From positions 1 through 47,967 of IMG/VR virus record IMGVR_UViG_3300027704_003263: a DNA stretch of 47,967 nt; one strand, 5' to 3'. Origin of the DNA: a virus. Position numbers and translations under genes: made by a program. A model generated the notes under the pieces. The model was not told the DNA's origin. It saw nothing but the letters and a program-made list of their open reading frames with translations, and searched no databases. Below are positions 5,393 to 37,908 of this stretch, in pieces (the stretch's first letter is position 1; each line of letters begins with the position of its first letter).

Positions 5393-5399
5393 ATTGTAT

Positions 5400-13667: not shown

Positions 13668-13692
13668 GTCCGGTTGATTCCCGGGCTTTTTT
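13668..13692 (+). terminator. Rho-independent terminator between helicase and nrdJ
   Basis: GTCCGG at 13668-13673 pairs with CCGGGC at 13681-13686 (one G-T wobble), a loop of 7 bases, then six T at 13687-13692. It is the clearest terminator in the window and ends the helicase transcript. A weak promoter-like TTGGGT (13624-13629) and TATATT (13648-13653) lie just before it, so transcripts starting there would have the hairpin in their leader. Confidence 0.8.
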
Positions 13693-13739
13693 CGTCTAAA
13701 AATAAATCGTTAATAAAAAAACAAGGAGATTACAAAACA

Positions 13740-15596
13740 ATGGAGATTTCAAACAAAATTTTGAGTGATATCACAGTATACATGAAGTATGCAAAATATT
13801 CCCCGGAGCTCGAACGGCGCGAGACGTGGGATGAATTAGTCGACCGTAACAGAGATATGCACATAAAACGATATCCTAAACTACGTAACGAAATACTAGA
13901 CGCATATGAATATGTATATGCAAAAAAAGTATTACCGTCAATGAGATCACTGCAATTTGGTGGTAAATCTATAGAAATCTCTCCAAACCGAATTTATAAT
14001 TGTGCATATCTTCCAATTGACGATTACCGAGCCTTTGGTGAAACTATGTTTTTATTATTAGGCGGAACGGGTGTTGGTTATTCAGTGCAAAAGCACCATA
14101 TAGAAAAATTGCCAGAAATTCGCAAACCAAATTTAGACAGAACACGACGATTTTTAATTGCGGATTCAATCGAGGGATGGGCAGATGCAGTTAAAGCGTT
14201 AGTTAAAAGTTATTTTCAAGGAACTTCTAAATTAAAATTTGACTTCTCAGACATTAGACCAAAAGGGGCTAGGTTAGTAACATCTGGAGGTAAAGCCCCA
14301 GGCCCACAACCATTAAAAGAATGCTTAATTAAAGTACAAGGAATATTAGATGCTAAACATGCTGGCGAATTTTTATCGCCGATTGAAGTTCATGACATGG
14401 TATGTCACATTGCAGATGCTGTCTTGGCAGGAGGTATTAGGCGTGCAGCACTTATTAGTTTGTTTAGTGCCGACGATGAGGATATGATTGCATGTAAAAC
14501 TGGTAATTGGTGGGAAACAAATCCACAACGAGGCAGATCTAATAACTCAGCCGCATTAATGCGACATAAATTAACCAAAGGATTTTTTATGGATCTTTGG
14601 AAGCGAGTAGAATTGTCTGGAGCAGGTGAGCCGGGTATATATTTAACCAATGACAAAGATTGGGGAACTAATCCATGTTGCGAAATAGCACTTAGACCAT
14701 TTCAATTCTGTAATTTATGTGAAGTAAATGCATCAGATATTGAATCACAAGAAGATTTCGAAAATCGAGTAAAAGCGGCGGCATTCATTGGTACACTTCA
14801 AGCAGGATATACTGAGTTTCATTATTTAAGACCAATTTGGCAAAGAACCACTGAAAAAGATGCATTAATAGGCGTATCAATGACCGGGATAGGCTCTGGT
14901 ACAGTATTAGGATATGATATGACTAAAGCTGCAGAGATTGTTAAACAAGAGAATGCGAGAGTAGCTAATATATTAGGTATAAATGAATCTGCTAGAACAA
15001 CCACAGTTAAACCAGCTGGAACTACATCATTAGCATTAGGTACAAGTTCAGGTATCCATGCATGGCACAATGATTATTATGTTAGGAGAGTAAGAGTAGG
15101 TAAAAATGAGGCAATATATACATACTTGGCAAACAATCATCCAGAGCTTATAGAAGATGAATATTTTCGTCCTCACGACACTGCAGTTATCAGTATTCCA
15201 CAAAAAGCACCAGCTGGTGCAATTATGAGAACCGAATCACCATTTGAATTATTAGATAGAATCAAAAAAGTGCATTTAGATTGGGTTAAACCAGGACACC
15301 GAACGGGGAACAACACACACAATGTATCTGCAACCGTATCTCTTAAATCGGATGAATGGGACTTAGCAGGCGAATGGATGTGGACTAATCGAAATCATTA
15401 TAATGGATTATCTGTATTACCATATGATGGTGGTACATATGTTCAAGCTCCATTTGAAGACTGCACTGAATCAAAATACAATGAAATGATGTTGGCACTT
15501 AAAGATATAGATTTGTCTAAAATCGTAGAATTATCTGACGATACAGATTTATCAGGAGAATTAGCGTGTGCTGGTGGCGCTTGTGAAATTACATAA
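13740..15596 (+). CDS. nrdJ: Class II (B12-dependent) ribonucleotide reductase
   Basis: A 618-residue protein from the ATG at 13740, which has AAGGAG 10 bases upstream; the TTG at 13674 lies inside the terminator loop and is not used. It matches the monomeric RTPR type. C88 (NRIYNCAY), C313 in NPCCEI (with E315) and C324 keep the spacing of the radical and redox cysteines. C610 and C615 (ELACAGGACEIT) match the C-terminal shuttle pair. GGTGVGYSVQ and RPKGARLVTSGGKAPGP are family motifs. It makes deoxyribonucleotides with adenosylcobalamin and needs no oxygen or second subunit. A thioredoxin that could reduce it is encoded at 18400. RTPR from Lactobacillus is longer (739 residues), so this one is compact. 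Confidence 0.92.
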   Translation: MEISNKILSDITVYMKYAKYSPELERRETWDELVDRNRDMHIKRYPKLRNEILDAYEYVYAKKVLPSMRSLQFGGKSIEISPNRIYNCAYLPIDDYRAFGETMFLLLGGTGVGYSVQKHHIEKLPEIRKPNLDRTRRFLIADSIEGWADAVKALVKSYFQGTSKLKFDFSDIRPKGARLVTSGGKAPGPQPLKECLIKVQGILDAKHAGEFLSPIEVHDMVCHIADAVLAGGIRRAALISLFSADDEDMIACKTGNWWETNPQRGRSNNSAALMRHKLTKGFFMDLWKRVELSGAGEPGIYLTNDKDWGTNPCCEIALRPFQFCNLCEVNASDIESQEDFENRVKAAAFIGTLQAGYTEFHYLRPIWQRTTEKDALIGVSMTGIGSGTVLGYDMTKAAEIVKQENARVANILGINESARTTTVKPAGTTSLALGTSSGIHAWHNDYYVRRVRVGKNEAIYTYLANNHPELIEDEYFRPHDTAVISIPQKAPAGAIMRTESPFELLDRIKKVHLDWVKPGHRTGNNTHNVSATVSLKSDEWDLAGEWMWTNRNHYNGLSVLPYDGGTYVQAPFEDCTESKYNEMMLALKDIDLSKIVELSDDTDLSGELACAGGACEIT

Positions 15597-16041: not shown

Positions 16042-16716
16042 ATGAAAGAAGTTATGAAAATAAGAAACATTGAATTAGTTAAAGAAGGCTTTGCTAATGG
16101 TGTAGCGACCGGAGGTCCTTTATCAGATCAAGATAAATCTGATATGATTGAAACCGCAGCCCAAGCATTTGGTGCATTTTTAACTGCATTACGTTGTGAT
16201 TGGCAAAATGACCCAAACTCCGACAATACACCACACCGTGTTGCTAAAGCATATGTAAACGATTTGTGGTCCGGTAGATATAATGGACCTCCTAATATTA
16301 CTGCATTTCCAAGTGATGGATATGATGGTATGGTATTTGAAGGAGGTATTCCATTGACATCTATGTGTTCACATCATCATCAGACTATTATGGGTAAAGT
16401 GCATATAGCATATATACCAGGAAATGATAGTCATGTAATTGGATTAAGTAAATTGAATCGTTTAGTAGAACACTTTGCAAGACGAGGTGCAATTCAAGAA
16501 CAATTAACTGTTGCAATTCACAATTCAATTGATACAATTATCAATGACAATAAAGGCGTAGCAGTAATGATTGATGCTATGCATAATTGTGTATCTTGTA
16601 GAGGAGTTAAACATGGTGGAGCATCAATGAAGACAAGCAAACTGACAGGAGCATTTAAAGATGATGCCTCAACTAGATCAGAATATTATGAATTTGTAAA
16701 AGGATATAATGGCTAA
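16042..16716 (+). CDS. folE: GTP cyclohydrolase I (FolE)
   Basis: A 224-residue FolE. Zinc-site and active-site motifs are visible: TSMCSHHHQ with C109 and H112, and AMHNCVSCRGV with C183 near the end. KLNRLVEHFARRGAIQEQLT is the family core. It turns GTP into dihydroneopterin triphosphate, the first step of both folate and 7-deazaguanine synthesis. The next gene is a QueD homologue and queE follows two genes on, so the 7-deazaguanine use is the likely one here. The stop overlaps the queD start by 8 bases. It is preceded by a predicted leaderless promoter. The start at 16042 is preferred; M at residue 5 is an alternative. Confidence 0.93.
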   Translation: MKEVMKIRNIELVKEGFANGVATGGPLSDQDKSDMIETAAQAFGAFLTALRCDWQNDPNSDNTPHRVAKAYVNDLWSGRYNGPPNITAFPSDGYDGMVFEGGIPLTSMCSHHHQTIMGKVHIAYIPGNDSHVIGLSKLNRLVEHFARRGAIQEQLTVAIHNSIDTIINDNKGVAVMIDAMHNCVSCRGVKHGGASMKTSKLTGAFKDDASTRSEYYEFVKGYNG

Positions 16717-17170
16717 ATTTACATCAACTAAATTATTTGACGGATATTCAACATGTTTCCGACAATGGAAAGCAACGGATACTCATTGTAGTTATCTTCA
16801 TGGCTATGCTCTATCATTTCGAGTATGGTTTGAAGGCGAATTAGATCATCGAAATTGGGTGTTTGATTTTGGAGGAATGAAGCGATCTGAAAATAAAATA
16901 AATGGATTTGCTCCAAAAGATTATTTTGCATGGTTATTGGATCATACAGTAATCATTGCTAATGATGACCCTGAGTTAGACTCATTCAGAATGATGGATG
17001 CTCAAGGTATTATACAACTCAGAGTGATTGACGACACTGGGTGTGAAAAGTTTGCAGAGTTTTTATATAAAGTCATTAATGGATTCTTGCTCAAGGAAAC
17101 AACCGGCCGTGTAAGAGCTAGTAAAGTAGAAGTTTATGAACACGAAAGAAATTCGGCAAGTTATGAGTAA
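16709..17170 (+). CDS. queD: 6-carboxytetrahydropterin synthase homologue (QueD), variant
   Basis: A 153-residue protein of the QueD/6-pyruvoyl-tetrahydropterin synthase family. HCSYLHGY (residues 26-33) holds the catalytic Cys (C27) and a His (H31), and SKVEVYEHE near the end holds the substrate-binding Glu. In standard QueD, zinc is bound by three His (one in F-S-A-A-H and two in HGH). Here the third is Tyr33 and the first is replaced in YSTCFRQW, so the zinc site differs. QueD makes the pterin that QueE turns into CDG. It overlaps folE and the next gene, and it lies between folE and queE, which supports the role. Confidence 0.8.
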   Translation: MAKFTSTKLFDGYSTCFRQWKATDTHCSYLHGYALSFRVWFEGELDHRNWVFDFGGMKRSENKINGFAPKDYFAWLLDHTVIIANDDPELDSFRMMDAQGIIQLRVIDDTGCEKFAEFLYKVINGFLLKETTGRVRASKVEVYEHERNSASYE

Positions 17171-17501
17171 TATTACATATGTATCATTGTATGACTATTT
17201 AGGCAGATCGACTTCATCGACTCGCGATGGTATTAGAGTTGCTGAATTAGCAGATCAGAAAGGTATCAAACCAAAATATCAAGTGTTACCAACATCGTGC
17301 CAGACAGATAAGTTTAAATCAGTTGCAACGTGGCCAATAGACTTTTTAGATACCATATATAAACGTACGCATCAAGTAGTAGTTCGACAAGATGAATTTA
17401 TTGAATTGAAACAAAAAGTACAACAATTAGAACAACTAATAAATAAAATAACAAATGTTACCAATAGTAATGTCGGCCCTGCCGATGACCTCCCATTCTA
17501 A
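17163..17501 (+). CDS. Conserved phage protein, unknown function
   Basis: A 112-residue protein from the ATG at 17163, which overlaps the queD stop by 8 bases; an ATG 27 bases upstream would overlap far more. It starts MSNITYVSLYDYLGRSTSST, a conserved start of a small hypothetical family (SLYDYLG). The C-terminal part is a predicted coiled coil (ELKQKVQQLEQLINKI). The end, NSNVGPADDLPF, has an acidic-Pro-Phe tail, which is common in proteins that contact ssDNA-binding proteins or clamps; that link is a guess. No function is known to me. Confidence 0.6.
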   Translation: MSNITYVSLYDYLGRSTSSTRDGIRVAELADQKGIKPKYQVLPTSCQTDKFKSVATWPIDFLDTIYKRTHQVVVRQDEFIELKQKVQQLEQLINKITNVTNSNVGPADDLPF

Positions 17502-17502
17502 T

Positions 17503-18273
17503 ATGAAACGAATAGACGATTATAATAAAATATTACCGATATTAGAAGTATATCGATGTGTACAAAGTGAAGGAAGCCGTTTTGGTAGACCCACAATTGC
17601 AATAAGAACAACCGGATGCACTCACCGATGTTATTTTGGAGAAGGCGGGTGGTGTGATTCTTGGTACACAAGTATACACCCAGAAAAAGGCACTTTTTGT
17701 TTTCAAGACATTGTAGACATATATGATGCTAATCCACAAGTTAAAGAAATGATGATTACAGGAGGATCTCCTACTATGCACCCGACTTTAATGAATGAAT
17801 TAACTTTATTTGCTAGCAAGCGCGGGATTGTAACTACTGTGGAAACAGAAGGCAGTCATTTTATTGAAACTACAATTCCATTTGATTTAGTTTCTTTGTC
17901 ACCTAAATTTAGTAACAGTGTGCCAGTAATTGGAACTAAAACACCAGCTGGTAAAATAGTAGACGAACGAATGGTTACACAACACAATAAACTTCGTCTC
18001 AATCATAACGCTATTCATAAAACTTTAGAATACCATCATGACTATCATTATAAGCCAGTTTGGGATGGTACCGATGAAACATTGAAAGAAATAGAATATT
18101 TTCGATTGAAACATAATATCCCAAAAGACAAAACATATATAATGCCGGCTGGAGATACAAGAAAAGAATTAATTAAAATGTATCCTATAATATTCGAAAT
18201 GGTAGCAGAACATGGTTATAACATGACAGGTAGGGATCATATTATTGCATATGACACAGACCGAGGAGTATAA
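17503..18273 (+). CDS. queE: 7-carboxy-7-deazaguanine synthase (QueE), radical SAM
   Basis: A 256-residue radical SAM protein. I put the start at the ATG at 17503, which follows the previous stop by one base. RPTIAIRTTGCTHRCYF begins the SAM motif, and the cluster cysteines are C39, C43 and C51: C-x3-C-x7-C instead of the usual C-x3-C-x2-C. MITGGSPTMH and VETEGSHF are SAM-binding and QueE-type motifs, and KPVWDGTDETL is in the C-terminal part. It converts carboxy-tetrahydropterin to CDG, the precursor of all 7-deazaguanines. folE and queD are just upstream. A small gene begins within its last codons. Confidence 0.85.
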   Translation: MKRIDDYNKILPILEVYRCVQSEGSRFGRPTIAIRTTGCTHRCYFGEGGWCDSWYTSIHPEKGTFCFQDIVDIYDANPQVKEMMITGGSPTMHPTLMNELTLFASKRGIVTTVETEGSHFIETTIPFDLVSLSPKFSNSVPVIGTKTPAGKIVDERMVTQHNKLRLNHNAIHKTLEYHHDYHYKPVWDGTDETLKEIEYFRLKHNIPKDKTYIMPAGDTRKELIKMYPIIFEMVAEHGYNMTGRDHIIAYDTDRGV

Positions 18274-18403
18274 ATTAGAAGCATTAGAATTGCTTAATGA
18301 AATCGAAGAGAATATTAATATATGTTGTGCCATAACTATGGAACCAGATGATGTGCTAGCACATATTAATAAGTTACGTATAATAATAAATAATATAACA
18401 TGA
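18251..18403 (+). CDS. Small acidic helical protein, unknown
   Basis: A 50-residue open frame starting 23 bases before the queE stop, in another frame, and ending in an ATGA overlap with the thioredoxin gene. The protein is a predicted helical hairpin: MTQTEEYKLEALELLNEIEE, then ICCAITMEPDDVLAHINKLR. Without it, the stretch 18274-18399 would be an unexplained 126-base gap in a compact genome. The overlaps on both sides support it. A weak GGAG-like site is not visible, so expression may rely on coupling. Confidence 0.5.
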   Translation: MTQTEEYKLEALELLNEIEENINICCAITMEPDDVLAHINKLRIIINNIT

Positions 18404-18636
18404 GTCAATTACTATATTTTACAGCACCATGGTGTGGACCATGCAAACTATTAAAACCAAAATTAAATCAATTAACTGTTTCATACAGAACAATTAACAT
18501 CGATCAGGACATGGATACTGCTAATCGTTACAATGTTAGAAATATTCCTTGCTTTATGCGAATCAATGCAAACGGACAAGAAGTATCAAGAATAGTAGGA
18601 AACAGTGTAACTATTGACAACATAAAAAGATTATAA
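18400..18636 (+). CDS. Thioredoxin-like protein
   Basis: A 78-residue thioredoxin-fold protein with the standard active site WCGPC (residues 11-15) and a cis-Pro motif (RNIPCF). It is shorter than a typical thioredoxin (about 105) but has all core elements. It reduces disulfides; the class II ribonucleotide reductase at 13740 has the C-terminal Cys pair that thioredoxin normally regenerates, so it is a likely partner. A further Cys follows the cis-Pro. The start overlaps the small gene before it. Confidence 0.85.
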   Translation: MSQLLYFTAPWCGPCKLLKPKLNQLTVSYRTINIDQDMDTANRYNVRNIPCFMRINANGQEVSRIVGNSVTIDNIKRL

Positions 18637-18731
18637 TGTACTGGTATAGCACGACAACATATAAAAAACATATTCAACATTATATTAATAAACACATACA
18701 AAAAAACTATACAATGGAAAAGGAACAAGTT

Positions 18732-19025
18732 ATGAATTGGAAACCAATGGGCGATCAAGTATTGCTAAAAGTAGAAAAAAAATCAGAAAAGACAAAATCT
18801 GGAATTATATTAGTCGACAGGGACATGGCTTTTGTACTTGGAGAAGTAGTAAAGACCGGAGATGGGTTATTTACTCAGACAGGAGCTCGTATACCATTGA
18901 CTGTTAAAGCCGGAGACACTGTTTATGTGTATAAATCAAATTTAGGCGAAAACAAAGAGATCGTCCTTGATGATGATCAATATATGTTAATTCGGGAATC
19001 TGAAATTGCTGTAGTTAATGATTGA
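18732..19025 (+). CDS. GroES-like co-chaperonin
   Basis: A 97-residue protein. I choose the ATG at 18732, preceded by AAAGGA 7 bases upstream; ATGs at 18714 and 18636 extend the same frame but have poorer ribosome sites. WKPMGDQVLLKVEKKSEKTKSGIILVD and GEVVKTGDG, then VKAGDTVYVYKS, match the GroES core including a mobile-loop region (SEKTKSGIIL). In T4, gp31 replaces GroES to fold the capsid protein; a phage GroES homologue here could do the same. The end overlaps the next gene by 8 bases. The 95-base stretch before it, 18637-18731, holds nothing else I can support. Confidence 0.8.
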   Translation: MNWKPMGDQVLLKVEKKSEKTKSGIILVDRDMAFVLGEVVKTGDGLFTQTGARIPLTVKAGDTVYVYKSNLGENKEIVLDDDQYMLIRESEIAVVND

Positions 19026-19266
19026 ATCATTAGGTTGGATTAGCACCATATTAGTATTATGTGGGTATATCTTAAACGCCCGTAATTTGACTAAACTTGC
19101 CATGTTTTCTTGGATAATTGGAGATATTGGTTGGGTGAGCTATGACATAATGATAAACAATATTAGTCACATGGTATTGAGTTTTATTATTATTATAATT
19201 AATATTTACGGCATATGGAATATATGCAATCTTAAAAAGGAAAAACTTTGGCGTATCAAGCAATAG
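19018..19266 (+). CDS. Small membrane protein, three transmembrane segments
   Basis: An 82-residue protein with three hydrophobic segments: about 3-20 (LGWISTILVLCGYILNA), 27-46 (LAMFSWIIGDIGWVSYDIM) and 52-70 (MVLSFIIIIINIYGIW), then a basic tail. The pattern GDIGWVSYD resembles small PnuC-like or related membrane families, but the gene is too small for a transporter alone. It overlaps the GroES-like gene start and its 3' end overlaps the polymerase start. Function unknown. Confidence 0.6.
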   Translation: MIESLGWISTILVLCGYILNARNLTKLAMFSWIIGDIGWVSYDIMINNISHMVLSFIIIIINIYGIWNICNLKKEKLWRIKQ

Positions 19267-21767
19267 GTTATGATAAACGTGCTAACATAATGCACGTGTG
19301 GGATGATAAATTAGGTCATCAAAAGTTTCCATTTCAACCATATGGTTATTTACCGTCTGAAACTGGGCAATATAAAACATTGGATGGTAAGCGTTTATCT
19401 AAAGTTTCTGGGAATCATCGAGACAACTCAAATTCATTCGAATCTGATTTAAATGAAGAAGTTCGTACTCTAATAGATTTATATTATGAAAATGACACCG
19501 TGTCTACAGGACATCGAGATTTCTTTTTTGATATTGAAACGGCTAAAGACGAAAATGGATATAGTACTGTGGATGATGTACGAACAGCTATAACATCTAT
19601 TGCATACTATGATAAAAGTGGTCATGACCGTAGAGTACTAGTATTAGATGAACGGCAACGCATCAAAGATAGCATTATACAAGGCGATGGCTATGTATTA
19701 GAAATATTCCGAAGCGAAAAAGAATTACTTACCAGATTTATCAATGCATTTGCGGAAATACAACCTACTGTTATAACTGGTTGGAACACCGACGGCTATG
19801 ATATTCCATATCTATTAGGAAGATGCAAAAAAGTATTAGGGAATCAATCTATCAAGAAATTATCGCCAGCTGGAATAGTTACACAGAATCCTAAAAGTAA
19901 AAAATGGAAGATATTTGGTGTATCGAGTTTAGATTATATTAAACTATATAAAAACTTCACATACTCAGAACTTCCTAATTATAGATTAGATACTGTTGGT
20001 AAAACTGAGTTAGGAAGAGGTAAAGTTGAATATGACGGTGATTTAGATGATTTATTTGAACAAGACATTCACAAGTTTGCTTATTATAATATGACTGATG
20101 TTGATTTAGTATATGAATTAGACGAAAAGCTTCAACTTATCAATTTAGCCCGGACTATATGCCACAAAGGCCACGTACCATATGAAGATGTGTATTATGC
20201 ATCTAAATATCTTGATGGTGCAGCAATAGTTGATTTAAAACGGAATGGATACGTAGCTCCTAACAAACAATTCCGATTCATTGATGATGAACACCAAGAT
20301 GATCTAGCAGGAGCATATGTAATGTTACCTGTTCCTGGATTATACAAATGGATATATGATTTAGATTTAACATCGCTATATCCTAGTATCATAATGAGTT
20401 TAAATATATCTCCAGAGACTAAAATTGGTGTTATACAGAATTGGAACCAAGACAGCCTGTTACAAAAAGCCCCAATATCAGTCAATATTAATAATAACGA
20501 TATACCAGACGTTAAACAATGGTTAACAGACAATAAATATACGGTTGCTAGTAATGGTGCTGTATATGATACTTCTAGAATTGGATTTCTTCCAGCTATT
20601 CTTAAAACTTGGTTTAATGAACGTGTTGAATATAAAAATAAGCGAGATGAATATGAGGTTGGGTCAGAAGAGTATAAATTTTACGATGCGTTACAATTAA
20701 CACAAAAAGTGTTGTTGAATTCATTTTATGGAGTATTAGGACTCAAGACTTTCCGATTCCACGATCTAGACAATGCAGGAGCAATTACGGCAACTGGTCA
20801 AAGTGTAATTAAATTTTCTGCAAAAGTAATCAATGCATATTATACTAAAGAGACGGGTAAAGCTCATTTCTTTAATTCTACTAATAAAGGCAGACCATCA
20901 CCATTCTCATTCTACACAGACACAGATTCTACATTTGTTAGCTCGTTGCCTATCATAGAAAACCGATATCCGGATTATGATGAAAATGACGAGCAGTTCA
21001 TGATTGAAAAAACCAATGAGGTTGCTTCGGAGATACAAAAACATGTAAATGCAATGTATGATCATTATGCTGATATATTTCACAATACCAAAGAACACAA
21101 ATTTCAGATAAAGCAAGAATATGTTGCAAAGTCTGGATTATGGATTGATGCCAAGAAACGATATGCACAATGGGTTTTATTTAAAGAAGGCAAACCTACG
21201 GATAAAATAGATATTAAAGGTATGGATGTGGTTCGTAGTAGTTTCCCAACGGACTTCAAGAAGATAATGAAAGAAACATTGTGGTACATTCTTAAAGAAA
21301 AAGACAAAACTGCAACTTCTGACTTAATATTTAAATTTAAAGACTCTATACAAAATTCTGAAATCTTAAATGTTATGAAAAATACTGGAGTCAAAGAGGT
21401 TTCGAAATATATTAAAGGACGTAAGACATTTTCAGGATATATGAAAGGCACTCCGGCTCATGTAAAGTCGGCTATAAACTTCAATGATATGTTAAGCAGA
21501 TTAAAGTCAGACGAAATAGACATAAAGAATGGTGATAAAATAAAATGGGCATATCTTCGAAACAATCCAATGGGGTTTCAAACCATGGCACTTCGAGGTT
21601 ACAATGATCCACCCGAAATAGTAGATTTTGTTGAAAAATACATTGACAGACAAAAAATGTTTGAAAGTGATCTTCAAGGTAAACTAGATGATTTCTTTGC
21701 GGCAATGAATTGGGGTAAATTACCAGAAAATAATACAGTGAATAAATTCTTTTCATTTGGAAAATAA
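19248..21767 (+). CDS. 43: DNA polymerase, family B (T4 gp43-like)
   Basis: An 839-residue replicative polymerase (T4 gp43: 898). FFFDIETAK (D95, E97) is the exonuclease I motif and TGWNTDGYDIPYLLGR the second. Motif A is DLDLTSLYPSI (about residue 370), motif B is KVLLNSFYGVLG (about 488), and motif C is YTDTDSTF (about 555). The C-terminal end has the sequence NKFFSFGK, a possible clamp-binding tail as in T4. The start is TTG at 19248 with AAGGA 7 bases upstream; it overlaps the previous gene. It works with gp45, gp44 and gp62 encoded at 25552-28277. It is the main polymerase of the phage; a second, family A type lies at 5400. Confidence 0.95.
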   Translation: MAYQAIGYDKRANIMHVWDDKLGHQKFPFQPYGYLPSETGQYKTLDGKRLSKVSGNHRDNSNSFESDLNEEVRTLIDLYYENDTVSTGHRDFFFDIETAKDENGYSTVDDVRTAITSIAYYDKSGHDRRVLVLDERQRIKDSIIQGDGYVLEIFRSEKELLTRFINAFAEIQPTVITGWNTDGYDIPYLLGRCKKVLGNQSIKKLSPAGIVTQNPKSKKWKIFGVSSLDYIKLYKNFTYSELPNYRLDTVGKTELGRGKVEYDGDLDDLFEQDIHKFAYYNMTDVDLVYELDEKLQLINLARTICHKGHVPYEDVYYASKYLDGAAIVDLKRNGYVAPNKQFRFIDDEHQDDLAGAYVMLPVPGLYKWIYDLDLTSLYPSIIMSLNISPETKIGVIQNWNQDSLLQKAPISVNINNNDIPDVKQWLTDNKYTVASNGAVYDTSRIGFLPAILKTWFNERVEYKNKRDEYEVGSEEYKFYDALQLTQKVLLNSFYGVLGLKTFRFHDLDNAGAITATGQSVIKFSAKVINAYYTKETGKAHFFNSTNKGRPSPFSFYTDTDSTFVSSLPIIENRYPDYDENDEQFMIEKTNEVASEIQKHVNAMYDHYADIFHNTKEHKFQIKQEYVAKSGLWIDAKKRYAQWVLFKEGKPTDKIDIKGMDVVRSSFPTDFKKIMKETLWYILKEKDKTATSDLIFKFKDSIQNSEILNVMKNTGVKEVSKYIKGRKTFSGYMKGTPAHVKSAINFNDMLSRLKSDEIDIKNGDKIKWAYLRNNPMGFQTMALRGYNDPPEIVDFVEKYIDRQKMFESDLQGKLDDFFAAMNWGKLPENNTVNKFFSFGK

Positions 21768-21785
21768 GAATAAATTTATTATAAT
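21757..21785 (+). promoter_or_regulatory. Sigma70-type promoter after the gp43 gene
   Basis: TTGGAA at 21757-21762, a 17-base spacer, TATAAT at 21780-21785. The -35 lies in the last codons of the polymerase. Transcription should start near 21792, leaving about 9 bases before the ATG at 21801, without a Shine-Dalgarno. It drives the operon up to 28493. Confidence 0.6.
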
Positions 21786-21800
21786 AAATAAAAAAGTTAT

Positions 21801-22253
21801 ATGTACGGAAAAGATCAATGGCGAGGTAGAGAAGTAGAAGGCCGCTACTCAGATATGATGACTTACTTTATTCGAGATTTAGGTAATGGTATCAATGTAG
21901 ACATCCTTCAATCGTATCCGCATTATTATTTTACTATTGAATATATGGAATCTGCTAAAAATTCTGATAATTGGCAGAATAAACAAAATTTATATGATCC
22001 AATCCGATCGATATTAGACACTACTAATTGTGTAGTAACTATCGAAGCAAATAGTAATGTATTAGAAAATCTTCCACCAGACATATTTAATCGATGCCAT
22101 GTTATATATCGTATTCAAGACGAAGCATTACAAAAACTCAAAGACACAGATACATTCAGTGTAGATGCAGGTTGGTATCGTGTGCATCAGGTTACTAAAT
22201 GCAATATGATGGAAATAAAGCCCGATAACTATAAATTTGATGAAGAAGTATAA
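21801..22253 (+). CDS. Unknown protein
   Basis: A 150-residue protein, start MYGKDQWRGREVEGRYSDM. It has a mixed alpha/beta outline with a YPHYYFTIEYMES segment and a helix with DIFNRCHVIYRIQDEALQKL. No known motif is visible. The first gene of the operon from 21801; the TAATG overlap with the next gene shows coupling. The neighbours are unknown, and DpdA and clamp genes lie further downstream, so no role can be drawn from context. Confidence 0.6.
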   Translation: MYGKDQWRGREVEGRYSDMMTYFIRDLGNGINVDILQSYPHYYFTIEYMESAKNSDNWQNKQNLYDPIRSILDTTNCVVTIEANSNVLENLPPDIFNRCHVIYRIQDEALQKLKDTDTFSVDAGWYRVHQVTKCNMMEIKPDNYKFDEEV

Positions 22254-22771
22254 TGGGTAAATGTCCATATACAAATTTTAAAAATCGTGTATTAGATTAT
22301 ATCAATATATTAAGAACACCTAGAGAAGAATATGGAAATATGCCACCATGTCCATTTGTCGGAGCTGAGTTAGATAAAAATAAATTATTAATAGAAAAAT
22401 TTGATCCTAAAGAAAACACATTGTTAGACATGATTGAAAAATTAGAAAATTCAGATTATGATAGTGCATTATTTGCTCAGGTGCAAGATGACGATTTAAA
22501 ACAAAATGATACGGTTAGATATCAAAATTTTATTAATAAAACGTTACAAGAAAATGGCTATACTCATTTAACATGTATATGTTTTAATCCGGCCGATAAA
22601 TTAAATATAAATGGATTTAATCCTAGAAGTCAAGCACCATATTTTTTAATTAATATTGCACAATCTTCTGTATTAAGTAAAGCACATACTAATTTATTAA
22701 AAACAAATTATTTCGACAAAATGAACGATCGTTATTTAAAATATTTAAAAGTTAAAAAAGACGAATTATGA
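22253..22771 (+). CDS. Conserved phage protein, unknown function
   Basis: A 172-residue protein. Its N-terminal region contains TPREEYGNMPPCPFVGAELD, with a Cys-Pro-Phe site also seen in some unrelated small proteins, and KCPYTNF at the very start. The C-terminal part reads YTHLTCICFNPADKLNINGFNPRSQAPYFLINIAQ, then a Lys-rich tail. The Cys residues may coordinate a metal or act in redox, but no family is recognised. It overlaps the previous and next genes by one to four bases. Confidence 0.6.
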   Translation: MGKCPYTNFKNRVLDYINILRTPREEYGNMPPCPFVGAELDKNKLLIEKFDPKENTLLDMIEKLENSDYDSALFAQVQDDDLKQNDTVRYQNFINKTLQENGYTHLTCICFNPADKLNINGFNPRSQAPYFLINIAQSSVLSKAHTNLLKTNYFDKMNDRYLKYLKVKKDEL

Positions 22772-23115
22772 AATATAGTGTAGTAGTATCATTTAGTATG
22801 GAAGGATTTCATTGTTGGCCAGAAGCCAAAGAAGTATTTCCAGAAGTAGCATTTTTATCAGATAGACACCGACATCAATTTGGATTTCGTTGTTACGCTC
22901 AAGTAACGCATACAGATAGAGATGAAGAATTTATTTTAATGCAACGAAAATTAAAAAAACAATTAAGAGTTACATTTGGTGGTAATATATTAGAGTTTGG
23001 CCGAATGAGCTGTGAAGATATTGGAGATTGGATATTAACTCATTCTGCAAATGAAAATTTATACAAAGTAGAAGTATGGGAAGATTGGGAAAACGGAGCA
23101 ATAATAGAAAGATGA
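22768..23115 (+). CDS. Possible T-fold protein (QueD/PTPS-like)
   Basis: A 115-residue protein. Pattern: FSMEGFHCWPEA, then DRHRHQFGFRC, then RMSCEDIGDWI, then VEVWEDWENGA. This order resembles the pterin-synthase T-fold (F-x-AAH; HGH; EN/ED; V-x-V-x-E), with His residues in the right places. I recall similar small proteins in other phages. It lies 346 bases before a glycosyltransferase and the DpdA gene, so a link to deazaguanine metabolism is possible, but function is not known. The end overlaps the next start by 4 bases. Confidence 0.45.
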   Translation: MKYSVVVSFSMEGFHCWPEAKEVFPEVAFLSDRHRHQFGFRCYAQVTHTDRDEEFILMQRKLKKQLRVTFGGNILEFGRMSCEDIGDWILTHSANENLYKVEVWEDWENGAIIER

Positions 23116-24287
23116 GAAAATTATTTTATTTTGGCCTAGAGCCACTAAAAGCTAGATATACATATCAGCTATCAAAAGAATGGATGCCGGCTACATTTGA
23201 GCCATATGCAGACCGGTTGGAGTTTATTGATATCGAAGGCGACTTTGACCCAGATCAACAAATAAAGATAGGCGCAGTATTAGATGCGGTAGGTCGAGGT
23301 AAATTTGCAATGAGTCAATGTTCTAACTTTTTGGATATGCTCAATCGAGACGAAGTTAATGATGGGGACATTATATTCCTTCAAGACTATTGGCATCCGG
23401 GTATTGAGTCTATATTATATGCAATAGATTTATATGGTATTGATTTAAAATTCTATTCAATGCTACATGCACAAAGCGTAGATGAATATGACTTTACATA
23501 TCCAATGCGCAATTGGATGCGTGGTTTTGAGTTAGGATTAGACAAAAGAATGACCGGTATATTTGTAGGATCGACAATTCACAAAGATCAACTAAGAGCT
23601 GCGGGCTTCGAAGCACCAATTCATGTTGTTTCACTCCCATTACACGCAGAAATGGCATTAGATAAGAATCCAAATTATGATCCATTCAAGAAGCGAAATG
23701 ATACTGTAGTATATTCAAGCAGATTAGACAAGGAAAAGAATCCATTCTTTATGCTTGAAGTTGCCGAAGCATTTTTAACAGATAATCCTGATTGGACATG
23801 GCACGTTACCACATCTGGTAAAGAGTTTAAATCATCATTGCCTGGAGTATTAGGAGCAATGTATGAATTAGAAAAACGTCAACCTAGATTTGTTTGTATG
23901 CATAATTTAACTAAACAAGAATATTACGAACAATTATCCACTGCTCGAATACAATTTAATTCAGCTTTGCAAGACTATGTTTCTTGGACAGTATTAGAAG
24001 CAACATTGTTTGGATGTGATGTGGTATATCCAAATTTTAGATCATTCCCGGAATTTATCCCAAAAGATAAATTATATCAACCATTCGATCTTAACGATTG
24101 TTTGAAAATATTCACTAATGTGATTGATACCGGTAATAACTTCCAAACTATGCGCTTCCCATTACTATCTGATTTGGGTCGCCAAATGGAAGGGTATATC
24201 ATTGCCAATGATTATGATCGAGAAATTAATGTGTGGCACGAAGAAGCATATTGTAAACATTTATTAGAAAAGGAACAAAATGGATAA
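23112..24287 (+). CDS. Glycosyltransferase (GT-B type) beside dpdA
   Basis: A 391-residue protein from the ATG at 23112 (ATGA overlap with the previous gene); an ATG 36 bases upstream lies in the previous gene. The C-terminal half has the GT-B signature: VVYSSRLDKEKNPFFMLEVA (sugar-binding domain start), NLTKQEYYEQLSTARIQFNSALQDYVSWTVLEATLFGCDVVYPNF, then RSFPEFIP. The N-terminal half is the acceptor domain. The substrate is not known. It ends overlapping the dpdA-like gene by 8 bases, so both are made together; a role in decorating a modified base is possible but not shown. Confidence 0.7.
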   Translation: MRKLFYFGLEPLKARYTYQLSKEWMPATFEPYADRLEFIDIEGDFDPDQQIKIGAVLDAVGRGKFAMSQCSNFLDMLNRDEVNDGDIIFLQDYWHPGIESILYAIDLYGIDLKFYSMLHAQSVDEYDFTYPMRNWMRGFELGLDKRMTGIFVGSTIHKDQLRAAGFEAPIHVVSLPLHAEMALDKNPNYDPFKKRNDTVVYSSRLDKEKNPFFMLEVAEAFLTDNPDWTWHVTTSGKEFKSSLPGVLGAMYELEKRQPRFVCMHNLTKQEYYEQLSTARIQFNSALQDYVSWTVLEATLFGCDVVYPNFRSFPEFIPKDKLYQPFDLNDCLKIFTNVIDTGNNFQTMRFPLLSDLGRQMEGYIIANDYDREINVWHEEAYCKHLLEKEQNG

Positions 24288-25536
24288 AAAAGAGTTTTTA
24301 TATATACCGTCACTCTCGGCAGGTAGTATGGTATCGGCTTTTAAGAAAGATACTAAATTTGAAGATGGCACTACAATGCGATTCTTTGCAAAAGAATACC
24401 CAGACAAATGGCGACACCCACACTTCTTGGTAACTGCAGGTCACCATTATAAAAAAATGGACTTTAGAGATCAATTAGGGTTAGATGATGGTACATTTGT
24501 ATTTGGAGACTCAGGCGGATTCCAGATTGCTACGGGGGCTTTAAAATGGGATGGTACCATTCGAGAAAAGATATTTCATTGGTTAGAAGCTAATAGTGAT
24601 GTAGCAGCAAACTTAGATATACCGCCCCGTGTTACATTTGAAAATCGGTTCCAAGATTCAATGGATATATCATTTGACAATTTTAAATACTTTGAAAAGC
24701 ATCAAAGTGGTAAGACTAAATTCTTAAATGTTATACAAGGTACATTCAGTGAAGAATACAAAGAATGGTATCATAAGTTCAAAGACTTTGACTTTAAAGG
24801 TTGGTGTATTGGAGGTCCTAAGAAATTAGTTGACTTTATGTATGTAATTGCATTAATGCTTCAGGAAAGAGAGTTTGAAAAAGGTCATGTCGAATACATA
24901 CACTTATTAGGTATAAGTAAAATATCAGATTTCTTTATATTAGCAACATTGCAGAAATTATTAAATACATTAACTGGCAATAGGATCCAATTGATGTCAG
25001 ATTCATCTTCCCCCGGGCAATATCCAGTATTTGGAACATATTTGCATTCTGGAAATTATAAAACTCAAACATTCACGGAATTGTATTTTCCAAAGAATGC
25101 TGAATATCGAAGGAAGACACATATCAGAAATGGCAAAGATGGAACTATTACTATAGATAAAACACAACATGTACCATGTAGTATAAATTGTCCAGCATGT
25201 AATGACTTTACATATGAGTATTTAGGAGGCCAAACTACTACCGGATTAGATCGATATTCTCAAGAAGGTATGCCTCGAATGGTTGTGCATAATACGCATT
25301 TATATTGTGAAATTGTAAAGGATATTAATAAATTAACAGATAGTCACGTTGAATTGTTAGAAACGGCAATTCCAAAGGAATTATTCAATGTTATTTTATC
25401 ATTACATGAAATGTTTGCAGATCCAGACAATGCAATGAATGTATACTCAACATATAAGAAAACATATAAAAAGTTTGGTGGCGAAAGTATATCAACCACC
25501 GATATTAAACAATTCAATAAATTTTTTAAATTTTAA
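24280..25536 (+). CDS. dpdA: DpdA-like tRNA-guanine transglycosylase homologue (DNA 7-deazaguanine insertion)
   Basis: A 418-residue protein of the TGT/DpdA family. DSGGFQ (77-82) is the family motif with the base-binding Asp. HLLGIS (208-213) and MSDSSS (239-244, D241) align with the region of the nucleophile Asp. A zinc site reads C300-x3-C304-x2-C307 (VPCSINCPAC). TGT enzymes swap guanine in tRNA; phage DpdA swaps it in DNA, which protects against restriction. Because folE, queD and queE are also present, DNA modification with a 7-deazaguanine is likely. The ATG follows AAGGA by 6 bases. It could still be a tRNA enzyme, but phage context and DpdA-like layout argue for DNA. Confidence 0.75.
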   Translation: MDKKEFLYIPSLSAGSMVSAFKKDTKFEDGTTMRFFAKEYPDKWRHPHFLVTAGHHYKKMDFRDQLGLDDGTFVFGDSGGFQIATGALKWDGTIREKIFHWLEANSDVAANLDIPPRVTFENRFQDSMDISFDNFKYFEKHQSGKTKFLNVIQGTFSEEYKEWYHKFKDFDFKGWCIGGPKKLVDFMYVIALMLQEREFEKGHVEYIHLLGISKISDFFILATLQKLLNTLTGNRIQLMSDSSSPGQYPVFGTYLHSGNYKTQTFTELYFPKNAEYRRKTHIRNGKDGTITIDKTQHVPCSINCPACNDFTYEYLGGQTTTGLDRYSQEGMPRMVVHNTHLYCEIVKDINKLTDSHVELLETAIPKELFNVILSLHEMFADPDNAMNVYSTYKKTYKKFGGESISTTDIKQFNKFFKF

Positions 25537-29920: not shown

Positions 29921-31390
29921 ATGAAGTTACCAAAGCTACAACCCGTAGACATCAACAAAAAAACAAAAAAGAAAATCTTATTATTATCCGATGATTTCCG
30001 ATTACCAAGTGGTATTGGAACTATTAGTCGAGAAATTATATTGAAAACGGTACACCATTATGATTGGGTACAATTAGGAGCAGCATTAAACCATCCTGAA
30101 CACGGTAAAGGTCAAGACGTATCACAACAGATACAACAAGAGACTGGTATCATGGATGCCGACGTTAAAGTTATTCCGTGGACTGGTTATGGCGATCGTA
30201 ATGTGTTATTCTCAATATTAAATCAAGAAAAGCCCGATGCCATATTACATTTTACCGATCCTAGATATTGGGGCTGGTTATATGCATTAGAGCATGAAAT
30301 TAAAACCACATATGGTATACCTATTGCATATTATTCAATATGGGATGACCTACCCTATCCAATGTGGAACGCCCCATTTTACGGCAGTTGTGATATGATT
30401 ATGGGAATCAGTAAGCAGTCAGACAATATACATAGAGAAGTGCTTAAACAGAATGGATTTGAGGTATATGACCACGATTCAAAAGAAAAAGACAATGGTG
30501 GTATAATCACCGGCTATGTTCCCCACGGATTAGACGAAAATGTATATACACCATTAGATCGAAATAAACCTGAATATCGAAATATGCATAAGCAGATAAA
30601 AGAAGATAATGGTGCAGACTTTGTAGTATTTTGGAATAACAGAAATATAAGGAGAAAACAGCCAGGTGATGTGATACTTGCATTTAAAATGTTTAACGAC
30701 AAGTTAACCCCGGAGCAACGTAGTAAAACCATGCTTCTAATGCATACCACACCAGCAGATGCAAATGGTACTGATTTAAGAGCAGTAGCAAAAAACGTTG
30801 CTCCAGATTGTAAAGTAGTATTTTCAGAAGCTAAACTTTCTATACAAGATCTTAATGCAATGTACAATGTAGTAGATGTAGTTGTGAATATTGCTAGCAA
30901 CGAAGGTTGGGGACTTAGTAGTACAGAAGCAATGCTATCAGGAACTCCTATTATAAACAATGTAACCGGAGGCCTTCAGGACCAATGTATGTTCACAGAT
31001 GATGACGGAGAGTGGATTAAATTTGATGGAGAATTTTCATCGAATCATATGGGTAAATTTAAAACTCATGGCAGATGGGCTAAACCAGTATTTCCAAGCA
31101 ATAGATCATTACAAGGTTCTCCACAAACGCCATATATATTTGACGATCGATGTCGACCAGAAGACGTAGCAGACGCTATAACTGAATGGTATGAATCTCC
31201 ACCAAAGTTTCGTCAGCTATGTGGAATACAAGGCCGACAATTTTGTTTAGATAATGGCTTGACGGCAAAGCAAATGGGCAATAAAATGATTGAAATGTTG
31301 GATTTATTAACAAGCCGCCCCGTTGCCAGACCAAGATATACATTTGATAAAGTTGAAGAAAAAAAATATAAAAACATAGGAATAGCATAA
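29921..31390 (+). CDS. Glycosyltransferase, GT4-like
   Basis: A 489-residue protein. ILLLSDDFRLPSGIGTISREI begins the first Rossmann domain, and NIASNEGWGLSSTEAMLSGTPIINNVTGG is the GT4 nucleotide-sugar binding site with the E-x7-E motif. PRYWGWLYALEHE lies in the first half. The length fits the GT-B fold. It moves a sugar from a nucleotide donor; donor and acceptor are unknown. The ATG has AAGGAG 6 bases upstream. First of the glycan cluster. The Lys-rich end (KVEEKKYKN) has no known role. Confidence 0.82.
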   Translation: MKLPKLQPVDINKKTKKKILLLSDDFRLPSGIGTISREIILKTVHHYDWVQLGAALNHPEHGKGQDVSQQIQQETGIMDADVKVIPWTGYGDRNVLFSILNQEKPDAILHFTDPRYWGWLYALEHEIKTTYGIPIAYYSIWDDLPYPMWNAPFYGSCDMIMGISKQSDNIHREVLKQNGFEVYDHDSKEKDNGGIITGYVPHGLDENVYTPLDRNKPEYRNMHKQIKEDNGADFVVFWNNRNIRRKQPGDVILAFKMFNDKLTPEQRSKTMLLMHTTPADANGTDLRAVAKNVAPDCKVVFSEAKLSIQDLNAMYNVVDVVVNIASNEGWGLSSTEAMLSGTPIINNVTGGLQDQCMFTDDDGEWIKFDGEFSSNHMGKFKTHGRWAKPVFPSNRSLQGSPQTPYIFDDRCRPEDVADAITEWYESPPKFRQLCGIQGRQFCLDNGLTAKQMGNKMIEMLDLLTSRPVARPRYTFDKVEEKKYKNIGIA

Positions 31391-32646
31391 TGAGAAAAGT
31401 AGTTATATCATCACCAGTAATAACACAATCGGGTTACGGACACCACGCGCGGGAAGTTATCAAACAATTTATGGACAAGAAACAAGATGATTGGGATATT
31501 CATTTACTTTCAATGCCTTGGGGTAATACGCCATTTACATATCCTATACCAACGGAATGGAAACAAAAGTTCATAGGATTACCATTACAAACTAAACCAG
31601 ATGTCTGGGTACAAATAACAGTTCCTAATGAATTTCAAGCTGTTGGCGAATACAATATAGGAGTAACTGCCGGCACTGAAGGTAGTATTTGTAATCCAGA
31701 ATGGATTGACCGAATCAATCAAATGCAAATAACCATTGTCCCAAGTCAATTCACAAAGAAAACATTTGAAGATACTGCAGAAAAGCATGGTAAAACTATA
31801 ACTACCAATTTACAGGTAATATCTGAATATTTTGATGATACAATCTATAATAGTAACAATGTAACTACTAAGGTACCTGCATTAGAAACAATTATAGAAA
31901 AAGAAGCATTCTTAATGTGTGGACATTGGTTGTCTGGACAATTAGGAGAAGACCGTAAAAATATTAGCGGTGCATTGCATTGTTTCTTTAAAACATTTAA
32001 AGACAAAAAAACTAAGCCGGCTCTAGTGATGAAAACAAGTGGAGCTACATATAGTGTAACCGATCGCTGGGAGATTGAAAATAAAATCAACCAAATCCGG
32101 GACATGTTCGGATCTGAAAAACATAAGCTTCCTAATGTGTATTTACTTCATGGTGATTTAACAAATGCGGAAATGAATGCATTATACAATCACAACAAAA
32201 TTAAAGCAATGATTAGTTTTACAAAAGCCGAAGGATTTGGAAGACCATTGTTAGAATTTGCAACAACTGGTAAACCTATTATTGCTCCACATTATTCTGG
32301 CCAAGTAGACTTCTTAAAAAAGGAATTCATATGTGCATTACCAGGAACCATGACTGATATACATGAGTCTGCAGCAAATGACTTTTTACTTAAAGAATCA
32401 CAATGGTTTACTGTTGATTATGGGTATGCTAGTAAAATGTTAATAGACGTTCTTAAGAATTATAAGAACTGGAAACAATTGGCTACTCGTCAACGATATT
32501 TTGTTAATAGCAATTTTACGGAGACCGCTGTATCTAAACAATATGATATTCTATTAGACCTAATTGATGCCGGTACCGAGTCAATACCTAAACAAGTAGA
32601 GTTGAAATTACCTAAATTAAAACTACCAAAACTTCAGAAAGTATAA
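31390..32646 (+). CDS. Glycosyltransferase (GT-B like)
   Basis: A 418-residue protein. VVISSPVITQSGYGHHAREVI at the start and MISFTKAEGFGRPLLEFATTGKPIIAPHYSGQVDFL in the C-terminal half show a GT-B glycosyltransferase with an EGFGRPLLE donor site. The tail carries three repeats of the type LPKLKLPKL (residues 406-416), a Lys/Pro-rich end. The start overlaps the previous stop by one base (TAATG). A promoter lies after its stop. Confidence 0.75.
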   Translation: MRKVVISSPVITQSGYGHHAREVIKQFMDKKQDDWDIHLLSMPWGNTPFTYPIPTEWKQKFIGLPLQTKPDVWVQITVPNEFQAVGEYNIGVTAGTEGSICNPEWIDRINQMQITIVPSQFTKKTFEDTAEKHGKTITTNLQVISEYFDDTIYNSNNVTTKVPALETIIEKEAFLMCGHWLSGQLGEDRKNISGALHCFFKTFKDKKTKPALVMKTSGATYSVTDRWEIENKINQIRDMFGSEKHKLPNVYLLHGDLTNAEMNALYNHNKIKAMISFTKAEGFGRPLLEFATTGKPIIAPHYSGQVDFLKKEFICALPGTMTDIHESAANDFLLKESQWFTVDYGYASKMLIDVLKNYKNWKQLATRQRYFVNSNFTETAVSKQYDILLDLIDAGTESIPKQVELKLPKLKLPKLQKV

Positions 32647-32675
32647 TTGGATTTTTAATATAAATTAATTATAAT
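32647..32675 (+). promoter_or_regulatory. Sigma70-type promoter before GT2 genes
   Basis: TTGGAT at 32647-32652, a 17-base spacer, TATAAT at 32670-32675. Transcription should start near 32682, and the ATG is at 32684, so the message is almost leaderless. No Shine-Dalgarno. Confidence 0.65.
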
Positions 32676-32683
32676 ATAAATAA

Positions 32684-33304
32684 ATGAAAATAAGTTACGC
32701 CATAACAGTCTGCAATGAGTTTGTAGAGATACAACGTTTAGTTAATTTTCTAATTGCCAATAAACGACATCAAGATGAAATTGTAATTCAATTTGATAGT
32801 AAAAATGGAGATCCGGAAATAGAAGCATATTTACGAACACATTCCATTAATGGCGAATTCAATTGGCATTTCTATGAATTTCAAGGAGATTTTTCACATA
32901 TGAAGAATCGGTTAACTGATATGTGTAAAGGTGATTACATTTATCAAATTGATGCCGACGAAATGCCTTCGACATATGTTTTAGATATGTTACCGGAAGT
33001 TCTACAACATAATTCAGTAGATGTGCTTAAAGTACCTAGGATTAACACTGTAGAAGGAATTACTCCAGAACATATTGAAACTTGGAAGTGGGGTGTTAAT
33101 GAACATGGGTGGATTAATTTTCCAGACTTTCAATGGCGCATCTATAAGAACAATGGCAAAATTAAATGGGTAAATCGAGTTCATGAAGTGCTCGAAGGTT
33201 ATAAGACAATGTCATATCTTCCAACTGAAATGGAATGGTGTTTAGTTCACAATAAAACCATAAAGAAACAAGAACAGCAAAATAAATTATACGAGGAGTT
33301 ATAA
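32684..33304 (+). CDS. Family 2-like glycosyltransferase
   Basis: A 206-residue protein. ISYAITVCNEFVEIQRLVNFLI is the first strand and helix of a GT2/GT-A domain, IYQIDADEMP gives the D-x-D type metal site near residue 90, and NGKIKWVNRVHEVLEG is typical of the C-terminal part of this group. It is at the short end for GT2. It starts at a predicted leaderless promoter and ends directly at the next ATG. Confidence 0.72.
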   Translation: MKISYAITVCNEFVEIQRLVNFLIANKRHQDEIVIQFDSKNGDPEIEAYLRTHSINGEFNWHFYEFQGDFSHMKNRLTDMCKGDYIYQIDADEMPSTYVLDMLPEVLQHNSVDVLKVPRINTVEGITPEHIETWKWGVNEHGWINFPDFQWRIYKNNGKIKWVNRVHEVLEGYKTMSYLPTEMEWCLVHNKTIKKQEQQNKLYEEL

Positions 33305-36188: not shown

Positions 36189-36919
36189 TTAAAATTCCAA
36201 TTTATGTTTCTACAAATAATAAACATTGGCAATGTTTGCAAGTATTTACTCATTTATTCAATAAGTTTTTACCTCAACAAGAGTTGCGAATATTAGGCTA
36301 TGATACACCTAATTTCGGTTTACCAGATAATTGTAAATTTATTTCAATGGGTACACAAGGCCCAGTTAATGAATGGTCTACTGATTTACGTAAATTTTTT
36401 AAAAATTGTAAAGACAAATTTTTTATATATGGAACAGAAGACGTTTTTATATACAAAGCAATCAATGTTAGTTTTATAAATTATTTAATCGATATAATTG
36501 AATTAAATAATAATATAGGTCGCGTTAATCTTGTTGATGCAACAGAAGGTAATAATTGCCATTTAATTGATAGTCCACATTATGATGTAGAATTATTAAA
36601 CACCATTACCAAAAAAGAATGTGGGTGGGACGATTGGGAGTTATATATACAAAAACCATCAAGTGATTATAGTTTAACAACTCAATTATCTATATGGAAT
36701 AAAGAGTTTTTACTTCGTTACTTAAAGGATGGGTTAACACCATGGGACTTTGAACGGAAATCCCACATAGCAAAATTTGACCCAGATTACAAAATATTAA
36801 TGTTATACAAAAATTTTCCAATATACAAAAAGGAAGGATATAGTTTAGGAACTTGGACTAATAAAACATATTGGTTTGATTTATTAAACTCCAATATAAA
36901 AAAACAAATAAAATTATGA
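36185..36919 (+). CDS. Probable sugar-transfer enzyme, unknown family
   Basis: A 244-residue protein. IPIYVSTNNKHWQCLQVFTHLFNKF begins a Rossmann-like domain, FFIYGTEDVFIY has an E-D in a GT-A-like position, and LSIWNKEFLLRYLKDGLTPWDFE lies in the C-terminal part, a pattern seen in some small sugar-transfer proteins. No family assignment is safe. Its place inside the glycan cluster, with ATGA overlaps on both sides, makes a sugar role likely. Confidence 0.45.
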   Translation: MIKIPIYVSTNNKHWQCLQVFTHLFNKFLPQQELRILGYDTPNFGLPDNCKFISMGTQGPVNEWSTDLRKFFKNCKDKFFIYGTEDVFIYKAINVSFINYLIDIIELNNNIGRVNLVDATEGNNCHLIDSPHYDVELLNTITKKECGWDDWELYIQKPSSDYSLTTQLSIWNKEFLLRYLKDGLTPWDFERKSHIAKFDPDYKILMLYKNFPIYKKEGYSLGTWTNKTYWFDLLNSNIKKQIKL

Positions 36920-37903: not shown

Positions 37904-37908
37904 ATATT

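Follow-up and report, generated by a model that had tools for sequence, protein, structure and literature searches.

What does a virus put into its DNA when it encodes a route to a 7-deazaguanine base and a candidate enzyme for inserting it, but no visible QueC? The question is raised by a 48 kb fragment from an uncultured T4-like virus (the window, that is, the whole stretch of 47,967 nucleotides analysed here). FolE, QueD and QueE together form the route to 7-carboxy-7-deazaguanine (CDG). The original prediction placed these three enzymes at 16042-18273 and a TGT/DpdA-like protein at 24280, and left three options for the missing QueC: that it lies elsewhere, that the host supplies preQ0, or that the DNA base is derived from CDG. 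The relevant features are as follows.

16042-16716, + strand: FolE, GTP cyclohydrolase I (PF01227, E 1e-45; phrog_2197, E 4.5e-61)
16709-17170, + strand: QueD-like 6-carboxy-tetrahydropterin synthase, phage type (PF01242, E 2.3e-14; phrog_2389, E 1.5e-34)
17455-18273, + strand: QueE, radical-SAM CDG synthase (phrog_2076, E 1.5e-46; TIGR03365, E 4.9e-14)
21801-22253, + strand: protein kept across this virus group, no assigned function (hhalign only, weak)
22768-23115, + strand: small QueD/PTPS-fold protein, phrog_17812 (AlphaFold and Foldseek)
23076-24287, + strand: GT4-like glycosyltransferase, GT-B fold (AlphaFold and Foldseek)
24280-25536, + strand: DpdA, DNA guanine transglycosylase, DpdA2-like, of the subtype with a glycosyltransferase (PF01702, E 4.9e-7, passing the cut-off)

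The Pfam, PHROG and TIGR profiles uphold the coordinates, strand and identities of FolE, QueD and QueE. A check of residues invariant across 18 relatives shows that the QueD-like protein at 16709 retains the catalytic Cys27 and Asp78-His79, with an HGY instead of an HGH motif, and the cysteines of QueE are spaced C-x3-C-x7-C.

By its sequence, the 24280 protein is a DpdA rather than a tRNA TGT, which sharpens what the original prediction had called TGT/DpdA-like. The active site of the TGT superfamily is present (D77-SGG, D113, Q153-G154, D241), and H208 aligns with His196 of phage 9g, a position occupied by Tyr in E. coli TGT. DpdA2 is said to be without this His (Hutinet 2019, PMC6884629), but nt-1 DpdA2 has one at the 9g-H196 position in this alignment, contrary to that report. 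The family profile, built without nt-1, scores nt-1 DpdA2 at 124 bits, E. coli TGT at 8 bits and 9g DpdA1 below 0, and E. coli TGT falls outside the DpdA-like group in a tree that uses this single TGT as outgroup. Neither scores nor tree group the protein with tRNA TGTs, the placement that the original prediction had named as speaking against it. Searching PDB sequences with a DpdA profile made for this virus group brought up no match. Were the protein nevertheless a tRNA TGT, the genes would serve to raise queuosine in tRNA, and the Pfam TGT match, together with the retained zinc-site cysteines (C300, C304, C307) and HN motif, agrees with this. The histidine, the profile scores and the tree all argue the other way, as does the lack of a QueC for preQ0, preQ1 or Q, and I regard such a role as extremely improbable. 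DNA modification with a 7-deazaguanine through DpdA, the core of the original prediction, is well supported by the gene identities, the DpdA histidine and the affinity to DpdA2.

QueC is indeed missing from the window, as predicted, with no match to PF06508 in its 48 kb; since the window is a fragment, this absence proves little alone. Longer relatives are more telling. Neither QueC nor Gat-QueC turned up within the same virus group, for which 28 records reaching 173 kb were searched, or among 37 long and diverse contigs that encode the small protein found at 22768, and 12 isolates with this small protein are likewise without a bona fide QueC. All five DpdA isolates without the small protein contain QueC, and neither the small protein nor the glycosyltransferase occurs in the 13 QueC-type DpdA loci. 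Of the weak PF06508 matches in other records, those in X1 and two contigs look NAD-synthetase-like by eye and those in D479 and one further contig look like divergent PP-loop proteins, so that these five records were not counted as having QueC.

A preQ0-type modification, with QueC outside the window or in the host and preQ0 inserted by DpdA, would be compatible with a fragmentary genome, and DpdA phages without synthesis genes, which may draw on host preQ0, are known (PMC6884629). It is difficult to reconcile with the absence of QueC from the long same-group records and the diverse contigs, and with the mutual exclusion of the small protein and QueC in all sets tested; moreover, the virus's own FolE, QueD and QueE would be a waste if host preQ0 were used. 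Of the three options originally offered, a CDG-derived base fits best, whereas QueC elsewhere and host preQ0 are both disfavoured, as the lack of QueC tracks the small protein in every lineage tested; I consider insertion of preQ0 improbable. A QueC-free 7-deazaguanine modification of DNA is thus quite likely.

Two conserved genes, at 22768-23115 and 23076-24287, both directly beside dpdA, were overlooked in the original prediction, and taking them into account alters the end product to be expected. Searches of Pfam and of PDB sequences with the 22768 family returned nothing convincing, and the family was placed by fold search only: the AlphaFold model (pLDDT 95.6) has E. coli QueD (4ntk) as its best PDB match in Foldseek (E 6.8e-7). 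The zinc histidines H15, H34 and H36 are invariant among 70 diverse relatives, while an invariant Leu30 stands at the position of the QueD catalytic Cys and the LDH motif is missing. I lean slightly towards a protein that works on CDG, probably a CDG decarboxylase. It might instead be a second or replacement QueD, with CDG itself as the inserted base, given that it has the QueD fold, that near the small protein QueD occurs in just 21 of 51 loci compared with 28 of 51 for QueE, and that the three pathway enzymes encoded yield CDG. Yet the window and many relatives encode a QueD besides, with the catalytic residues retained, the 22768 protein has Leu for the catalytic Cys and no LDH motif, its gene is contiguous with those of the glycosyltransferase and DpdA and not with that of QueE, and in Magnetospirillum the small-protein gene stands apart from a distinct QueD-family gene. 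A second QueD therefore seems a poor candidate.

The second overlooked gene encodes a protein whose AlphaFold model (pLDDT 78.4) matches glycogen synthase, BshA and MshA (GT4/GT5) in Foldseek with E values from 6e-10 to 1e-8, and whose donor-site residues R216, K221 and E308 are kept in at least 98% of 43 diverse members. Many unrelated phages share this gene set: the small protein, the glycosyltransferase and DpdA occur together in 102 phage loci, in all six possible gene orders, and the glycosyltransferase is linked to the other two in 48 of 51 untruncated loci. The trio is also found in the alphaproteobacterial genomes of Magnetospirillum and Aurantimonas; in the former the three genes are contiguous and a phage-type integrase lies within 6 kb. 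Also found near the module are a purine phosphoribosyltransferase, at 54 loci, and, at 40 loci, a family of sugar-nucleotide epimerases. By a weak hhalign match (probability 80, E 1.5e-5), the 21801-22253 protein is possibly related to a family of about 175 aa that accompanies the module in other phages.

These observations suggest the following scheme. FolE, QueD and QueE would produce CDG, which the 22768 protein would convert, the most likely reaction being a zinc-assisted decarboxylation that gives 7-deazaguanine; DpdA is predicted to swap guanine in the phage DNA for the CDG-derived base after replication, and the glycosyltransferase would most likely put a sugar on the inserted base, or on the base before insertion. 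That the glycosyltransferase acts on this base at all, as its linkage to DpdA suggests, is an evenly balanced proposition. The explanation as a whole, a QueC-independent 7-deazaguanine DNA-modification module with a small protein that processes CDG, DpdA and a glycosyltransferase, I judge to be a little better than even, and the module would presumably protect from host nucleases.

Several points count against this explanation. Plain 7-deazaguanine offers no hydroxyl to an ordinary O-glycosyltransferase, and therefore a decarboxylase and glycosylation are compatible only if C7 or an amine carries the sugar, or if the product of the small protein is a different one. The subtype II phages phiST, D479, Ahp1 and MA9V-3 keep the small protein without the glycosyltransferase. 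Finally, the same virus has a separate, unrelated glycan gene cluster downstream in the window, at 29921-42287, so that glycosyltransferases are not rare in it. The last two points also favour a CDG-derived base that stays free of sugar, either dDG or dCDG, with the glycosyltransferase decorating virion or cell-surface glycans or the like, and both bases have reportedly been found in phages (Cui 2023). Against this stand the linkage of the glycosyltransferase to DpdA and the small protein, which holds for every gene order and extends to phages and bacteria that show no obvious glycan cluster next to it, and the failure to find its family in the 13 QueC-type DpdA loci. An unglycosylated base is thus unlikely, though it is the most serious of the alternatives.

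If a sugar is indeed placed on the base, phages with the module may hold an undescribed sugar-coated DNA base. No description of a glycosylated 7-deazaguanine in DNA was found in the literature searched, and 7-deazaguanine DNA bases are not known to carry anything larger than small side chains. With a sugar on 7-deazaguanine, phage DNA would gain a new class in chemical terms, a counterpart to the glucosylated cytosine of T4 but on guanine and made after replication. Resistance to nucleases that recognise guanine from the major groove would then be expected, and there would be a reason for the retention of FolE, QueD and QueE, without QueC, in so many phages that have not been cultured. That this is a widespread hypermodification of T4-like and jumbo phages and of alphaproteobacteria, free of QueC and with a dedicated GT4-like enzyme, is a tentative proposal that I hold at somewhat less than even. 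It is directly testable, because the trio is carried by cultured phages: Synechococcus phage BUCT-ZZ01, ACP17, X1, PA5oct and Phosso.

How does the module compare with known systems? The alpha- and beta-glucosyltransferases of T4 modify 5-hydroxymethylcytosine, and the proposed logic is the same, with a GT-B enzyme adding sugar to a modified phage DNA base, but the base is another, no hydroxymethyl handle is known here, and insertion is by transglycosylation, not through a modified dNTP. The dCDG/dDG phages, for which a CDG decarboxylase, DpdL, has reportedly been predicted (Cui 2023), have a CDG-branch base without QueC, as is predicted for the module, and the 22768 family is perhaps the published DpdL. 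Cellulophaga phage phiST shares a member of this family beside FolE, QueD and QueE, but lacks the glycosyltransferase and has another candidate transglycosylase; the family of its gp042 gives a low probability in profile comparison with TGT/DpdA, although D51, D81, Q116-G117, H182-x-LG and D205 of gp042 match the TGT motif order. The preQ0-type phages 9g, CAjan and nt-1 (Hutinet 2019, PMC6884629) have FolE, QueD, QueE and DpdA in common with the window, and the DpdA2 of nt-1 is related to the DpdA at 24280, but the module here is without QueC or Gat-QueC and adds the small QueD-fold protein and the linked glycosyltransferase. Mycobacterium phage Bipper, like the module, has DpdA and lacks QueC alone, and CDG has been suggested as its base (Hutinet 2019, PMC6884629). 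Bacterial Dpd islands (Thiaville 2016; PMC11888242) share with the Magnetospirillum locus a DpdA-based DNA modification in a bacterial genome, but the partners identified in Magnetospirillum are the QueD-fold protein, the glycosyltransferase and a CoiA-like nuclease-domain protein.

The set of FolE, QueD, QueE and TGT/DpdA-like genes from which a DNA modification pathway was originally predicted for this virus is real, and the DNA-modification reading is sound, with the chemistry itself a prediction. All four genes were recovered on the + strand, but two genes directly upstream of dpdA, with overlapping gene ends, had been overlooked, and these are the key facts.

Genes of the predicted pathway in the window
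16042-16716, + strand, FolE (PF01227, E 1e-45; assignment certain)
16709-17170, + strand, QueD-like protein (PF01242 2.3e-14, phrog_2389 1.5e-34; divergent but clear)
17455-18273, + strand, QueE (phrog_2076, 1.5e-46; clear)
22768-23115, small QueD-fold protein, 115 aa (phrog_17812, no known function)
23076-24287, GT4-like glycosyltransferase (GT), GT-B fold (predicted model, pLDDT 78.4)
24280-25536, + strand, TGT-superfamily protein (PF01702, 4.9e-7)

The 47,967 bp fragment carries T4-like replication genes, and its DNA polymerase B is closest to that of Microcystis phage Mel-JY01 (43%); a family A polymerase-like protein (442 aa, PF00476 1.9e-10) accompanies the T4-type family B polymerase (5394-6722 and 19248-21767). 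FolE-QueD-QueE lies between genes for a GroES-like co-chaperonin (18636-19025; PF00166, 3.9e-17) and for a B12-dependent ribonucleotide reductase (13674-15596). A large glycan cluster (29921-42287) holds several glycosyltransferases, a GDP-mannose 4,6-dehydratase at 38511 and a partial-looking DegT-type aminotransferase at 37909.

Judged by sequence, the 24280 protein is a DpdA, as predicted. Relatives are plentiful in IMG/VR (315 stretches), and those in isolates are distant (22-35%). A profile of 37 diverse relatives, from which every characterised DpdA was left out, scored 124 bits against DpdA2 of nt-1, 8 bits against E. coli TGT and below zero against 9g DpdA1. DpdA2 is a characterised subfamily, and the DNA of phage nt-1 contains dPreQ0 (PMC6884629). 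The family conserves the catalytic residues D77-SGG, D113, Q153-G154 and D241. In the alignment H208 falls on His196 of 9g, a position that is His in all DpdA aligned and Tyr in E. coli TGT. Although Hutinet 2019 (PMC6884629) describes DpdA2 as lacking His196, nt-1 carries His there in my alignment, a point that depends on the alignment. A tree, with weak deep nodes and a single TGT included, also places the family apart from E. coli TGT.

The AlphaFold2 model of the small protein (pLDDT 95.6, 70 diverse relatives as input) has a QueD/PTPS fold, with E. coli QueD (4ntk, E 6.8e-7) as the top Foldseek match. The zinc histidines H15, H34 and H36 are invariant, as is E105, by alignment the pterin-anchoring Glu. 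Where QueD has its catalytic Cys, the family has an invariant Leu30; the LDH motif is lost, and H48, D50, R51, E54 and E108 are newly invariant. The protein is QueD-like by predicted fold and departs from the QueD catalytic signature. The family also adjoins FolE, QueD and QueE in Cellulophaga phage phiST. A homologue in Streptomyces sp. NEAU-Y11 (L367:9974-11639) neighbours genes for QueD and FolE. Downstream lie those for a deaminase and an FAD-binding protein, and the whole possibly makes a 7-deazapurine natural product.

As originally noted, QueC is missing from the window (PF06508 profile, no matches). That it lies elsewhere in the genome, one explanation originally offered, fits poorly with its distribution: a bona fide QueC was found in none of 12 isolates with the small protein and in all five without it (CP220, nt-1, Voja-6, GR7B and 9g; Fisher p 1.6e-4, only indicative as the 17 isolates were not chosen at random), and a full QueC was found in none of another 37 long contigs, also diverse, that encode the small protein. 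Weak QueC matches that were inspected resemble NAD synthetase or divergent PP-loop proteins and were rejected. Conversely, 13 loci with an nt-1-type QueC have FolE (12) and DpdA2 (11), and neither the small protein nor GT in any. On this evidence QueC is replaced, not merely unseen. With QueE encoded by 16 of these 17 isolates, the pathway is expected to branch at CDG, and an alternative branch there, the CDG-derived route among the original options, best explains the absence.

The small protein, GT and DpdA genes form one unit. Within 8 kb either side of the small protein, 51 untruncated loci contain GT (48), DpdA (42), FolE (41), QueE (28), QueD (21) and no QueC. Members of the virus's own group share one order, small protein, GT, DpdA, clamp, wherever the contig reaches far enough; outside the group the trio occurs in BUCT-ZZ01, ACP17, X1, PA5oct and Phosso (with dpdA elsewhere in the genome) and in about 100 diverse IMG/VR loci. 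All six possible gene orders occur over 102 loci, which argues for linkage under selection, beyond shared ancestry alone. Among cellular genomes, Magnetospirillum contigs carry the trio contiguously and Aurantimonas sp. (L362:8041-11415) has it as a cluster; in M. aberrantis SpK (L365:8817-11925) it adjoins a CoiA-like nuclease-domain protein, with a phage-type integrase less than 6 kb away. These bacterial sets are possibly DNA-modification islands of a new type. A family of about 175 aa (motifs EVExTP, HIYFGANHSF, NPGVW), without a Pfam match, recurs upstream of the small protein (L083:7278-7760 and 61 other loci), and perhaps includes window 21801-22253.

Two subtypes emerge. Subtype I, that of the window, combines a DpdA2-like DpdA with GT. 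In subtype II (phiST, D479, Ahp1, Chryseobacterium phage MA9V-3 and others) GT is absent, the small protein is present and, in 24 loci, another conserved protein lies beside it, a phrog_20335-like family (phiST gp042, L081:9801-10577, and 23 related loci). Its conserved residues follow TGT motif order (D51, D81, Q116-G117, H182-x-LG, D205), so that it may be a very divergent transglycosylase/DpdA.

I infer that CDG is what the small protein acts on. On the simplest reading it would decarboxylate CDG to 7-deazaguanine, given a zinc pterin/purine-binding site from which the QueD nucleophile has been removed and the family's place beside FolE, QueD and QueE in phiST. DpdA would then swap guanine out of DNA, and a purine phosphoribosyltransferase, encoded near the module in 54 loci (L237:9867-10481 among them), as well as in BUCT-ZZ01 and PA5oct, and not found in the window, could recycle the guanine freed. 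GT is the module's least explained component and its most interesting one. It structurally resembles GT4/GT5 enzymes such as BshA and MshA, and of 43 diverse family members at least 98% keep the donor-site residues R216, K221 and E308. Its linkage to DpdA suggests that it glycosylates the base, as does a family of sugar-nucleotide epimerases encoded close to the module in 40 loci. Plain 7-deazaguanine has no hydroxyl, so the sugar would sit on C7 or an amine, or the small protein's product would be something else. Cui in 2023 reportedly showed that phages contain dDG and dCDG, and predicted that an enzyme named DpdL decarboxylates CDG; the small-protein family is a plausible candidate for DpdL. 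There is a fair chance that the module's predicted product, 7-deazaguanine bearing a sugar, is a new chemical class.
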